From NCBI GenBank assembly GCA_021786295.1, contig JAJYNO010000021.1:1-64000 (forward strand): a DNA stretch of 64,000 nt, written 5' to 3'. Position numbers and translations under genes: made by a program. The DNA comes from a bacterium (GTDB lineage: Bacteria; Elusimicrobiota; Elusimicrobia; Elusimicrobiales; UBA9959). The notes under the pieces are model-generated. The model saw nothing but the letters and a program-made list of their open reading frames with translations. It had not been told where the DNA came from and made no database searches. How positions within the stretch are numbered: the first letter of the stretch is position 1; every line of letters begins with the position of its first letter. Shown here in pieces: positions 32,692 through 52,974 of this stretch.

Positions 32692-33963
32692 TTACTTCGC
32701 CATGTAGGCGATGAAGTCGTCCCAGTTGGAAGCCTTGGCCCACTGCAGGGCGGCGTACGTGGACGGCGCGGCCTTGCCGGGCAGGTACACGGCTATGCCG
32801 TTGGAGTTGGCGTAGCTCGTGGGACCGTACCAGCCGCCGGAACTGTCGGTGGTGCGGTTCTCGCGGATCAGGGTGTTCTTGATGTAGTCCATCAGGGCCT
32901 GACCCTTGGCCTTCACGTCCGCGTTCTTGGTGTTGGCCACGACCAGCCGGGCGAAGTCGTAGAGGTCCTTGTTCTCCGGGTAGGCGTACTTCTGCGCGGA
33001 GTTCATGGCGGTGGTCGCCGCGGCCTTGTCGCCGGCTTTCATGATCGCGGAAGCGAAGGCGTCCGTGGCGTTCAGGAAACCGGGCAGGTCCGAGGTCTTG
33101 AGGAAGCTCTGCGTGGAGCCGTCGCCGGTGGTCTGGTAGTGGTCCGCGTAGGCGTCGACGGCCTGCCTGGCCACCTGCTCGGGGGTCATGGCGGGGTTGG
33201 CCACCAGCGGTCCCAGGAAGGTGTTGTAGGTGTAGCCGTCGCCCGGCTCGGTCTCCTCGGAGCCGACGATGTACTGCGCGTAGTCCTTCAGCTCGTAGTC
33301 CACCTCGGCCATCTGCATCAGGCAGGCGTCGGAGCCGTACACGTCCACGCCGCCGATCTGCTTAAGCACCTGTCCCAGCTGCGGGGTGTCGATGTGATGG
33401 TTGGTCACCTCGTCGTAAGAGATGCCCTTGGTAGCGGGGGGCAGCCCCTTTATCCAGCCTGCGCCGTGGTTCCAGATGATCAGCATGTAGTGCTTGGCGG
33501 GATAGTTGGCCTTGGCCCAGTCGGCGAAGTCTATCACGCTGTGGTAGTCGCCCATGTCCACGCTCTGCAGCTCCTGCACCACCGGGGAGGCGATGTGGGA
33601 GGGATCGGCGTCCTTCTTCACGAGGTAGCGGCGCACGGTCTTCCAGTCGCCGTCCGAGGTGTCGTAGCCGTTCATGCGGCCCACCTCGGTGACGATGTTG
33701 ACCTTGTCGCTGGAGCCGACCTGCTCCATCTCGTTCATGTCCTTCAGCGCGAACTGCTCAAGGTTGTTCTTGCCGTTCACGAAGACCATTATGGTCCAGT
33801 CCTTCTGCGCGCCTGCGGGTTTTACCGCCGGCGCGGGGACCTTGAGAGCGAGGTCGGAGATCTCGTTCTTAAGGTCGAAGTTGCCATTGTCGAAGTCCAC
33901 CGCGGCCAGGGCTAACTGGGCGCAGCATGACATGGCAAATACAGCTATTGCCAGCTTCTTCAT
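32692..33963 (-). CDS. Clostripain-like secreted protease A (C11 family)
   Basis: 423 aa. Signal peptide about 1-20, then a short propeptide-like segment and the C11 core: WTIMVFVNGKNNL opens the caspase-type fold; the catalytic dyad is His166 in IIWNHGAGW and Cys214 in GSDACLMQM. C11 proteases cleave after Arg or Lys and are often calcium-activated and self-processing. Start is ATG at 33963 with GGAGG six bases before; TATAGT (34019-34024, minus) is a likely -10. It is close to protease B at 40335 and separated from it by five signalling genes on the same strand. Confidence 0.9.
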   Translation of the reverse strand: MKKLAIAVFAMSCCAQLALAAVDFDNGNFDLKNEISDLALKVPAPAVKPAGAQKDWTIMVFVNGKNNLEQFALKDMNEMEQVGSSDKVNIVTEVGRMNGYDTSDGDWKTVRRYLVKKDADPSHIASPVVQELQSVDMGDYHSVIDFADWAKANYPAKHYMLIIWNHGAGWIKGLPPATKGISYDEVTNHHIDTPQLGQVLKQIGGVDVYGSDACLMQMAEVDYELKDYAQYIVGSEETEPGDGYTYNTFLGPLVANPAMTPEQVARQAVDAYADHYQTTGDGSTQSFLKTSDLPGFLNATDAFASAIMKAGDKAAATTAMNSAQKYAYPENKDLYDFARLVVANTKNADVKAKGQALMDYIKNTLIRENRTTDSSGGWYGPTSYANSNGIAVYLPGKAAPSTYAALQWAKASNWDDFIAYMAK

Positions 33964-40334: not shown

Positions 40335-41606
40335 TCAATTCTCGTACCACTTTATGAACTCTTCCCACTGGGAGGCCTTGGCCCACTGCAGGTCGTTATA
40401 GGCGCTCTCGAAGCCGTAGGTAGGCATATAGGCGTCTATGCCGTGGGAGTTGGTATAGCCGCTGCCCACCGGCCTGTTGACGAGCACCAGCGTGTTGCTG
40501 ATGTAGTCCATCAGGGCCTGGGCGGCGGACTTCACGGCCGGGCTCTTCGTGGTCTGGCTCATCAGCGAAGCGAAGTGCCAGATGTCGTGGTTGTCGGCCA
40601 CGGCGTAGCTCTGCGAGTTGTTGATCGCGTTCTTGACCGTGTCCTTGTCTCCGGCCTGCATCATCGCGCTGGCGAAGTTGTTCATCAGCACGGTGAACTG
40701 CGGGATAGCGGCGGACTTCACCAGGCTCTGCGTGGAGCCCTGGTTGCCCTCCTGCTGGTAGTGGTCGGCGTAGGCGTTCACGGCCAGCTCGCCCACCTGC
40801 TCCGGGGTCATGGAGGGGTTGGCCGCCAGGGGCCCCAGGAAGGTGTTGTAGGTGTAGCCGTCGCCGGGCTCGGTCTCTTCGGAGCCCACGATATAGGTCA
40901 CGTAGTCCTTGATCTCGTAGTCCACCTCGGCCATCTGCATCAGGCAGGCGTCGGAGCCGTACACGTCCACGCCGCCGACCTGCTTGAGGATCTGCCCCAT
41001 CTGAGGGGTGTTGATGTGGTTGCCGGTCTCGTCGTCGTAGGAGATGCCCTTGGTGACGCCCTGGGGCATGGACTTGTCCCAGCCGGAACCGTGGTTCCAG
41101 ATGATCAGCATGTAGTGCTTGGCCGGGTAGTTCTGCTTGGCCCAGTTGACGAAGTCGACCACGCTGGTATAGTTGCCCATGTCCACGCTGCCCATGTCCT
41201 GCAGGACCGGGGAGGTGACGGTGTTGGTGTCGTTGTCCTTCTTTATAAGGAAGCGGCGGGTGCCGGTGAAGGGAACATCGCCGTAGCCGGAGACCAGGCC
41301 GGTCTCGGTGACGACGTTGATCCTGCTGGTGGAGCCCACCTGCTCCATCTCGTTCATATCCTTTACCGCGTAAGGGGCCAGGTTGTTCTTGCCGTTGACG
41401 AAGACCATGATGGTCCAGTCCTTGGCGGACCGGGACGCGGCCACGGAGTTCGCATCGGCTTTCACGGGCGCGGGCACATTGACGGCCTGCGCGGCTATTT
41501 CCTGGTTGAGGCTGGTCTTGTTGGGGGAATCAAAAGAGATCTCCGCCGACACCAGGGGGGAAACCATCGCTACTATACCTAACGCTGCAGCTGCTTTCCT
41601 TAACAT
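40335..41606 (-). CDS. Clostripain-like secreted protease B (C11 family)
   Basis: 423 aa, the same length as protease A and clearly its paralogue. Signal peptide ending at about Ala21 (LVSA). Catalytic dyad His172 in IIWNHGSGW and Cys221 in GSDACLMQM. Long identical stretches (NYPAKHYMLIIWNHG, then VGSEETEPGDGYTYNTFLGP) point to a fairly recent duplication, with divergence concentrated in the propeptide and the C-terminal third. ATG at 41606 has GGAGG. Preceded by a near-consensus promoter at 41672-41701. Confidence 0.9.
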   Translation of the reverse strand: MLRKAAAALGIVAMVSPLVSAEISFDSPNKTSLNQEIAAQAVNVPAPVKADANSVAASRSAKDWTIMVFVNGKNNLAPYAVKDMNEMEQVGSTSRINVVTETGLVSGYGDVPFTGTRRFLIKKDNDTNTVTSPVLQDMGSVDMGNYTSVVDFVNWAKQNYPAKHYMLIIWNHGSGWDKSMPQGVTKGISYDDETGNHINTPQMGQILKQVGGVDVYGSDACLMQMAEVDYEIKDYVTYIVGSEETEPGDGYTYNTFLGPLAANPSMTPEQVGELAVNAYADHYQQEGNQGSTQSLVKSAAIPQFTVLMNNFASAMMQAGDKDTVKNAINNSQSYAVADNHDIWHFASLMSQTTKSPAVKSAAQALMDYISNTLVLVNRPVGSGYTNSHGIDAYMPTYGFESAYNDLQWAKASQWEEFIKWYEN

Positions 41607-43381: not shown

Positions 43382-43513
43382 GGGGATGCGGGGGTATGGG
43401 TTCCGAAGGCTGTCACGGAGGCCCGAGCTTACGTAAGCGCGAGGGCCGAGTGACAAGGGGCGGCAACGGTGTTGCCGACCCCGTGCCTGAGGGGCCCATA
43501 CCCCCGCGTCCCC
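43382..43513. repeat. Three-stem structured element A (secA-lnt intergenic)
   Basis: A 19-bp outer stem with one mismatch (43382-43400 with 43495-43513) encloses two inner hairpins. Hairpin 1: TGTCAC/GTGACA (43411-43416 with 43450-43455), GGCCC/GGGCC (43420-43424 with 43443-43447) and a GCTTACGTAAGC tip (43427-43438). Hairpin 2: GGGGCGGCAAC with GTTGCCGACCCC (43457-43467 with 43471-43482), closed by a GGT triloop with one bulged A. Fills nearly the whole gap between the secA stop and the lnt start. See element B at 50925-51059 for a second copy of the architecture. Confidence 0.7.
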
Positions 43514-43521
43514 GAACACCG

Positions 43522-50451: not shown

Positions 50452-50913
50452 CTACCGGCCGGCGCCGCGCGTGCGCCTGAGGGCCTCGTAGAGCGCGACC
50501 CCGGCGGACGTGGAAAGGTTGAGCGAGCGGACCCGGTCGGACCACATCGGTATGCGGTACAGCCTGTCCGCGTACTTCTCGTAGATCTCTTCGGGGAAAC
50601 CGGCCGTTTCCGCCCCGAAGACAAGGCAGGAGTCCTCCCGGTACGGCGCCTCCCAGTAGCTCTTTCCCCCGCGGGTCGAGAAGAAGACGAGCGAAGGGTC
50701 CGGCGGCAGCGACGCCAGGAACGCCTCGAAGTCCTTGTGCACCGAGTACTTCAGGAACTGCCAGTAGTCCAGCCCCGAACGCCTTATCTCCTTGTCGCTC
50801 AGGCTGAACCCCATCTTCCCCACGAACGCCAGCTCCGTGCCGGTGGCCACGCAGGTGCGCCCGATGTTCCCCGCGTTCCACGGGATATCCGGATTAATAA
50901 GCACAATTTTCAT
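50452..50913 (-). CDS. trmL: tRNA (cytidine/uridine-34 2'-O)-methyltransferase
   Basis: 153 aa, a minimal SPOUT enzyme. The N-terminal MKIVLINPDIPWNAGNIGRT matches TrmL; the trefoil-knot region includes LVFGAETAGFPEEI and RIPMWSDRVRSLNLSTSAGVALYE. It methylates the wobble ribose of leucine tRNAs. ATG at 50913 with AGGGGTGA. It is isolated from the glycan genes by function and lies directly beside structured element B. Confidence 0.92.
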   Translation of the reverse strand: MKIVLINPDIPWNAGNIGRTCVATGTELAFVGKMGFSLSDKEIRRSGLDYWQFLKYSVHKDFEAFLASLPPDPSLVFFSTRGGKSYWEAPYREDSCLVFGAETAGFPEEIYEKYADRLYRIPMWSDRVRSLNLSTSAGVALYEALRRTRGAGR

Positions 50914-50924
50914 GTTCACCCCTC

Positions 50925-51059
50925 GCCGGGCTGCCGACGCGGCAGGATAAGCAAAACCGTCGTTGAGCCCGCCGCTTGCGTCGCGCGGCGGGCGAATACC
51001 GGGTGAGGCCACGGTGTGGCCGAACGCGTTTTGCGTTCCTGCCGGGGCGGAAGCCCGGC
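50925..51059. repeat. Three-stem structured element B (asnB-trmL intergenic)
   Basis: Outer arms pair in blocks: GCCGGGCT/AGCCCGGC (50925-50932 with 51052-51059), GGCAGGA/TCCTGCC (50941-50947 with 51037-51043) and GCAAAAC/GTTTTGC (50951-50957 with 51028-51034). Inside are hairpin 1 GCCCGCCG/CGGCGGGC (50967-50974 with 50986-50993) and hairpin 2 GGCCAC/GTGGCC (51007-51012 with 51016-51021), again with a GGT triloop and followed by GA, as in element A. Shared bases also include GTGA before hairpin 2. Confidence 0.7.
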
Positions 51060-51066
51060 ACGCGCG

Positions 51067-52974
51067 CTACAGCCTGAAATCGTCGGCGTACTGCCGGTGC
51101 CAGAGCTCGAGCATCAGCAGCGCCCACAGCTTGTAGCCGTGGTCCGCGCGCCCCTGCTGGTGCTCGTCCCACAGCCTGTACACCGCCTCGGGCCTGAAAT
51201 AGCCGCGCCCGAGCGCCTTCTGCGACAGGCACGTCCCGGCCCAGTAGTCCTTCAGCTCGCCGCGGAACCAGATGCCGAGCGGTATTCCGAAGCCCATCTT
51301 CCCGCGCCGGTAGATGTCAGGGGGCAGCATGCCGCGGAAGGTCTCCTTGAGTATCCACTTCGTCCGGTTGAAGCCCTTCAGTTTCATGCCGCCCGGCAGC
51401 GCGAAGGCGAATTCCAGCACCTTGTGGTCCAGGAACGGCGAGCGCGTCTCCAGGGAATTGGCCATCGAGGCTATGTCCATCTTGGTCATCAGGCATTCCG
51501 GAAGGTAGGAACGCAGGTCCACGTAGCTCATGCGGTTCAGGAGGTCGTCGTCCGGGACCAGCGAGAAGAGCCTGGCTAGGTAGCGCTCCGCGTAGCCTTT
51601 GTCAGCCCCCAGCCTGTTGGCGAAGGCGTCAGAATAGAACGCGTCCGTCTCACCGGGACCGAAGAAAGAGACGGTGGACAGATACCGGCGCGGCAGCGTC
51701 TCCATGACCGAGAACTTCAGGAACTTCTCCAGCCGCCAGAAGAAATTGAACGGTGCCGTCTTCGGCGCCGCGGCTATCGCCTTCAGCGCGGCCAGTTTGG
51801 CGGAGCGCGGCGCCCACGAGACCAGGCGCTCCGCCTTCATCCCGACGTAGCGCAGGTAGCCGCCGAAGGCCTCGTCGCCGCCGTCGCCGTTGAGCGCCAC
51901 CGTGACCGCCTTGCGCGTCTCGCGCGAGACGAAGTACGAAGGCAGCGCGCTGGAGTCGGCGTAGGGCTCCCCGTAATGCCAGGCCAGTTTCTCCAGCACG
52001 TCGGCCATGCGCGCCTCCACCGTGAACTCGGTGTGCGCGGTGCCGTACATCTTCGCGACCTGCCTGGCGTAGGGAAGCTCCGAGAAGCGCTCCTCCCTGA
52101 AGCCTATCGAGAAGGTCTTCACCGGACGCTCGGAATGCCTCGCCATCAGCGCCACGACCACGGAGGAATCTATGCCGCCTGACAGGAAGGCTCCCAGCGG
52201 AACCTCCGACATCAGCCTGACCTTCACGGCCTCCGACAGCTCGGCCAGCAGCCGTTCCTTGAGCTCCGGCAGCGGCACGTACGACAGTTTCTCCTCTCCG
52301 AGCGGCAGGTCCCAGTAGCGCTCCTCGGAGAACTGGCCGTCCTCGAAGACCAGCACCGAGGCCGGCTGCAGCTTCCTCACCCCCCTGAATATGCTCAGCG
52401 GGCTCGGGATGTACTGCAGCGCCAGGTAGGCGTCTATCGCCGCCGGGTCCACCTCGCGCTTGACGTCGGGGCGGGTCAGCAGGCAGCGGAGTTCGGAGGC
52501 GAAGACGAAACTGCCGGGAGTGCGGACGTAGAAGAGCGGTTTCTTGCCCAGCCGGTCGCGCGCCAGCACCAGGCGCTTCTTTTTGCCGTCCCAGATCGCG
52601 ACGGCGAACATGCCGCGCAGCTCCTTCGGGAAGTCGGCCCCCTTCTCCTCGTAGAGGTGCAGGATGACCTCGGTGTCGCTTCTGGTCTTGAACTTATGGC
52701 CGCGGGAGAGCAGCCCCTCGCGCAGCTCGAGGTAGTTGTAGATCTCGCCGTTGAAGACTATCCAGGCGGTCCCGTCCTCGCTGGAGATCGGCTGGTGGCC
52801 GGTGGAAAGGTCTATGATCGAGAGCCGCCTCATAGCCAGGCCGACGTTCCGGTCCTGGAAATAGCCCTCGTCGTCCGGGCCGCGGTGGACGATCAGGTCG
52901 TTCATGGCCTTCAGGTCCCCGCGCTCCACGGCGAGGCCGGAACCGTAGTTGTAAAGTCCGCATATTCCGCACAT
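51067..52974 (-). CDS. asnB: Asparagine synthase (glutamine-hydrolysing)
   Basis: 635 aa. Cys2 nucleophile at MCGICGLYNYG, class-II glutaminase domain to about residue 190, then the synthetase domain with PPi-loop LSGGIDSSVV and GDGGDEAFGGY. The length and the position among glycan genes resemble exopolysaccharide/PEP-CTERM-associated amidotransferases, which amidate surface sugars, but free asparagine synthesis is equally possible. GGGAG precedes the ATG. Start of a minus-strand segment leading to trmL through element B. Confidence 0.9.
   Translation of the reverse strand: MCGICGLYNYGSGLAVERGDLKAMNDLIVHRGPDDEGYFQDRNVGLAMRRLSIIDLSTGHQPISSEDGTAWIVFNGEIYNYLELREGLLSRGHKFKTRSDTEVILHLYEEKGADFPKELRGMFAVAIWDGKKKRLVLARDRLGKKPLFYVRTPGSFVFASELRCLLTRPDVKREVDPAAIDAYLALQYIPSPLSIFRGVRKLQPASVLVFEDGQFSEERYWDLPLGEEKLSYVPLPELKERLLAELSEAVKVRLMSEVPLGAFLSGGIDSSVVVALMARHSERPVKTFSIGFREERFSELPYARQVAKMYGTAHTEFTVEARMADVLEKLAWHYGEPYADSSALPSYFVSRETRKAVTVALNGDGGDEAFGGYLRYVGMKAERLVSWAPRSAKLAALKAIAAAPKTAPFNFFWRLEKFLKFSVMETLPRRYLSTVSFFGPGETDAFYSDAFANRLGADKGYAERYLARLFSLVPDDDLLNRMSYVDLRSYLPECLMTKMDIASMANSLETRSPFLDHKVLEFAFALPGGMKLKGFNRTKWILKETFRGMLPPDIYRRGKMGFGIPLGIWFRGELKDYWAGTCLSQKALGRGYFRPEAVYRLWDEHQQGRADHGYKLWALLMLELWHRQYADDFRL

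Follow-up and report, generated by a model that had tools for sequence, protein, structure and literature searches.

The 64,000-nucleotide stretch of DNA analysed here, hereafter the window, contains two minus-strand genes, an asnB-type amidotransferase gene (51067-52974) and a trmL-type RNA methyltransferase gene (50455-50913, named from its sequence, with its start codon at 50913), which adjoin one another in much of the host genus. The intergenic gap between them (50914-51066) is filled by a plus-strand repeat, element B (50920-51062; covariance-model match at 50930-51057), which is antisense to both genes; the asnB-type gene, its upstream neighbour, ends just short of it, and trmL lies downstream. 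An initial annotation of this DNA had proposed for 50925-51059 an outer stem of three blocks enclosing two hairpins, the first GC-rich and the second closed by a GGT triloop and succeeded by GA, and this fold was recovered as claimed on the plus strand. The outer stem pairs a 5' arm (50925-50947) with a 3' arm (51037-51059), each of 23 nt, and is followed by an asymmetric internal loop, TAA (50948-50950) opposite GT (51035-51036), which is kept family-wide as TTA or TAA against GT. The inner stem is formed by GCAAAAC (50951-50957) and GTTTTGC (51028-51034), which mark the 5' and 3' border regions of a core that appears to be exchangeable between copies. Within it lie the GC-rich hairpin 1 (50967-50993, plus strand), with the loop region GCTTGCGT, and hairpin 2 (51007-51023, plus strand), which reads GGCCAC-GGT-GTGGCC and then GA. 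Compared with dinucleotide shuffles, the fold of element B has z-scores of -3.3 as plus-strand RNA, -4.8 as minus-strand RNA and -5.1 as plus-strand DNA.

A second copy in the window (43383-43515, plus strand) is intergenic, lying between two minus-strand genes, and folds with a z-score of -11.4; from its matching features it is presumably the element A with which the initial annotation had compared element B. A gene was probably duplicated elsewhere in the window, where two diverged, gene-sized stretches (32711-33804 and 40354-41423) form direct copies and reach 88% identity in some blocks.

Copy number and host range

The suggestion that the two elements define a repeat family was borne out by a genome-wide search, which found dozens of copies and not two sites only. 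In the 2.3 Mb host draft genome, BLAST with the element alone found seven further convincing sites, and a covariance model built from seven copies matched 30 places at E-values up to 0.013 (best 3e-26), corresponding to about 29 copies, one of the 30 places being a duplicate of another on the opposite strand. All 24 congener genomes searched carry the repeat, with 9 to at least 84 matches each. A second, larger model, built from 134 copies and applied to 295 genomes across the phylum Elusimicrobiota, all genomes in this work being draft metagenome bins, matched in five genera that belong to a single family; six other genera of this family and its sister family gave no match. Among the named Elusimicrobiota bins with exact core and model matches are GWA2_61_42, GWB2_63_22, CG1_02_56_21 and STB_10. 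Two single matches were observed outside the host family, in the same class (G200 of family f5, E = 1e-8, and G289 of family f13, E = 3e-6), and may reflect transfer, contamination or chance. Matches to a 19-base pattern in Bryobacterales, Nitrospira, Nitrospirota, Betaproteobacteria, Eggerthellaceae and Alphaproteobacteria were attributed to chance, as the model has no match there.

None of the Rfam 15 covariance models matched the repeat above its gathering cut-off, in agreement with the initial annotation, which had recognised no known family; weak matches to microRNA models fell far under their cut-offs and were discarded. A literature search found no description of it. The repeat, of about 135 nt and hosted by an uncultured lineage of Elusimicrobiota, is thus new to the libraries searched.

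Conserved structure and constrained strand

Throughout the family the outer arms consist of about 8 bp, a mismatch and 13 bp, followed by the TTA/GT loop, the inner stem and a two-hairpin junction. Variability is highest in the outer arms and the centre is the most conserved part. Among unpaired positions, conservation is strongest in GCTTGCnTAAGC (hairpin 1), CACGGTGTG (hairpin 2) and the GA that follows hairpin 2, so that the loop motifs noted in the first two copies hold family-wide, whereas the GTGA reported ahead of hairpin 2 is kept only loosely, as GaGnGaG. In 131 distinct copies, standard pairs occupy 92.1% of 5271 cells. Cells in which both sides have changed number 962, against 277 after shuffling and 90-141 when partners were slid by one to three columns. 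The shuffle count should not be taken as a probability, since the copies share descent and their alignment had been fitted to the model, but the slid controls are subject to equal relatedness. The covariation score behaves likewise, at 0.497 for the real pairs, 0.146 after shuffling and 0.04-0.07 in the slid controls. The earlier argument from two copies, that changed but complementary stems denote a selected structure, is therefore upheld across the family.

Among the non-Watson-Crick cells, G.T pairs far outnumber A.C pairs (235 against 30, or 150 against 30 when the pair bordering the internal loop is left out), with one subfamily contributing 25. This asymmetry indicates that the plus orientation is the constrained strand, either as RNA or as single-stranded DNA.

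Some copies (L022, L027, L031, L033 and G042:C32:84560-85010) contain extra short palindromes within the core, for example CACTGCAGTGGCC...GGCCAC and GTCGCTTCGCTCCA, which suggests that the element is invaded or extended by other small repeats. At L190, L035 and other loci a distinct short repeat, GTGGAGCGAAGCGACAC, was observed (7 exact matches in 1.7 Mb), and a NiCo riboswitch was observed at L189:3040-3117 (Rfam RF02683, 38.5 bits against a cut-off of 37).

Genomic placement, inverted pairs and mobility

The repeat is extragenic: none of 88 units falls within a called gene, and the median distance from a unit to the nearest gene is 40-50 bases, figures that are approximate since genes were called by a simple codon-bias script. 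The neighbours are ordinary conserved genes. At 10 of the 27 trmL loci with a recoverable start the element, found in both orientations, separates asnB from trmL; at many other trmL loci the two genes abut or nearly abut. One asnB-trmL gap (genome G024, locus L075, upstream of trmL) holds a different palindromic sequence, GTCATCCCGGCGAAGGCCGGGATCCAG, in place of the element. A replication-strand bias, which some transposons that move as single strands would be expected to show, was seen at first (18 of 25) but was not significant with more data (22 of 35, p = 0.18).

A copy stands either alone, as a monomer, or in an inverted pair. Where fewer than 400 bases separate two neighbours, the first is always in minus and the second in plus orientation, with their 5' ends inward; this holds for 27 of 27 pairs of a first set and for 20 of 20 from the genomes G018 and G042, the two sets overlapping through common copies. 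In many pairs one end has the form CCGCGAGAnGCnnAGTCGGGG and the other ends in GGTAGGCCGCCC, the flanks beyond being unrelated, and a spacer of about 45 bases is common to some of them.

Differences between G018 and G042, two related species whose flanks are mostly 89-98% identical, include one monomer and one inverted pair with clean presence or absence, and one further site also differs in this respect. For the cleanly differing monomer, the additional DNA comprises the palindrome plus its arms. No target-site duplication was seen in the one clean empty site or in the flanks of pairs. The mobility of the element, the fixed order of its inverted pairs and the exchange of cores between copies are additional to what the initial annotation had claimed.

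Separate histories of arms and cores

Within G018, some copies with identical cores have arms that are unrelated, the shared sequence ending near GGGTTAG at one border and near GTTCC at the other; the converse, different cores within identical arms and flanks, is also found. A comparison limited to one species pair and nine sites gave the same picture: in seven of the nine orthologous elements of G018 and G042 the core is closer to that of another locus (identity 0.90-1.00) than to its orthologue (identity 0.77-0.88), while in the same nine elements the outer arms and flanks still align between orthologues. Two of seven orthologous monomers are inverted, and some arms have changed in blocks of compensated pairs. 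The symmetry of the borders proves no mechanism, because the arms are self-complementary and symmetry follows from pairing. Insertion of cores into pre-existing palindromes was considered and rejected: the empty sites have no arms, and a search of about 1.9 Mb revealed no arms lacking a core. This absence makes replacement in place, for example by gene conversion or template switching, a better fit than docking into empty palindromes.

The best reading of these data is a repeat that is REP/REPIN-like in habit but much larger, and whose cores are exchanged between copies; we consider it probable that these copies, about 135 nt long and specific to a single Elusimicrobiota family, represent a foldback DNA repeat that is mobile but non-autonomous. 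The plus strand would fold as single-stranded DNA, probably at times when replication or repair exposes it, and a trans-acting enzyme would recognise the junction and the conserved loops and move the element singly or in pairs. The core of about 100 nt would be replaced through ectopic gene conversion or through template switching from one copy to another, and could be flipped by recombination between the inverted arms. It is also conceivable, but unlikely, that the exchange is a dedicated, cassette-like process, in which an enzyme that works on the folded strand would swap two-hairpin cores of about 100 nt between persistent paired arms, genome-wide, and could also flip them.

Mobile DNA or structured RNA

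A multiplied structured non-coding RNA, be it a gene or a regulatory element, would account for several of the structural features, namely the strand-specific fold, the tolerance of G.U-type pairs and the conserved unpaired loops, and the wobble asymmetry suits RNA equally with single-stranded DNA; selection would in that case act on the fold as RNA, for instance in protein binding or transcript stabilisation. Its placement is harder to reconcile with such a role. Orientation relative to co-directional neighbour genes is mixed (20 same, 32 opposite, from the same approximate gene calls), both orientations occur at the asnB-trmL site itself, copies are present or absent between close species, and no Rfam family is matched. 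We therefore regard an RNA as rather unlikely.

Mobilising enzyme and the REP/REPIN comparison

Searches for Y1, RAYT, reverse transcriptase and recurrent neighbour genes identified no mobilising enzyme. The initial annotation had recommended looking for a linked RAYT or other processing gene, and no linkage was found: in draft genomes, the contexts of 27 distinct Y1_Tnp genes (from 30 sources) yielded one model match, of chance quality (20 bits, E = 0.07, 39% GC). The best BLAST match at these contexts (20 nt) proved to be orthologous host flank, the others being short only. Y1 genes occur in most genomes, yet their presence does not follow that of the element, as they were detected in 11 of 12 genomes with the element and in 10 of 12 without it (both sets from other genera of the family), and four genomes of the host genus, all element-bearing, had none that could be found. 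Reverse transcriptase was rejected as the mobiliser, there being no RVT_1 match in G018 (listed as 100% complete, with at least 84 copies) or in G000. An autonomous version carrying a gene between distant minus/plus pairs was likewise discarded, since only ordinary genes were found there, and no transposase recurs among the neighbours of copies. A hairpin-binding HUH/Y1-type transposase would be the first candidate for the proposed enzyme; a Y1 protein acting in trans is put forward here as a hypothesis.

These results bear directly on whether the repeat is a strict REP/REPIN family, for which its own host genomes would encode the mobilising RAYT. The extragenic location, high copy number, palindromic form, inverted pairs with spacers of similar size and the Y1 transposase genes of most genomes would all agree with this, as would the sequence at the feet, since of 134 copies 38 have GTAG close to the 3' foot and 44 have GACG close to the 5' foot. 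The unit is, however, about 135 nt long instead of 20-40 nt, neither foot tag is general, no element lies beside Y1 genes and the two do not co-occur, so that strict membership appears quite improbable. Because three tested features fail (size and form, foot tag and linked RAYT), the repeat is set beside the REP/REPIN families and not within them.

A classical MITE, derived from a DDE transposon by internal deletion and bounded by terminal inverted repeats, would likewise be small and dispersed with inverted repeats at its ends, but here variability is greatest at the ends and conservation greatest in the centre, the reverse of a DDE MITE, which makes this origin very improbable; no target-site duplication was seen in the one clean empty site or in the flanks of pairs. 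Integron attC-like sites, of which one folded strand is the substrate and in which structure outweighs stem sequence, share with the repeat the single folded strand and stems that vary yet stay paired, but are scarcely credible as an explanation, as the copies lie between ordinary conserved genes and not in cassette arrays, the conserved hairpins are central, and it is the outer stem, not the terminal structure, that is hypervariable.

Relation to known repeats and significance

For the favoured reading, a mobile foldback DNA repeat, the closest parallel is the reported behaviour of REP/REPIN sequences and their RAYTs (PMC3116915, PMC3733652, PMC8266576). Both are high-copy extragenic palindromes that form inverted pairs with spacers as well as hetero-pairs, and they also have in common compensatory changes, strand-specific features and, probably, non-autonomy. 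The differences are considerable: REPs are single short stem-loops of 20-40 nt, whereas the Elusimicrobiota repeat places two hairpins on one stem in about 135 nt, has a variable outer stem and core exchange, and has neither a general GTAG or CGTC tag nor a linked RAYT. The enterobacterial repeats RU-1 (127 bp, ERIC) and RU-2 are intergenic and MITE-like (PMC2759123). The present repeat resembles them in its similar size, intergenic position and MITE-like character, a likeness of description, and it belongs to a different phylum. We know of no exchangeable two-hairpin core in RU-1 or RU-2.

Taken together, these data would add to a little-studied phylum an abundant and previously undescribed mobile repeat, far more elaborate than the REPs and with strong covariation support. 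At orthologous sites the history of the arms can be separated from that of the cores, which offers a direct way to study how pairing is maintained despite sequence change; selection on the fold, hairpin-templated correction and exchange between copies are the candidate ways in which palindromic repeats may stay paired. The repeat also poses a clear search, that for the enzyme that moves it.
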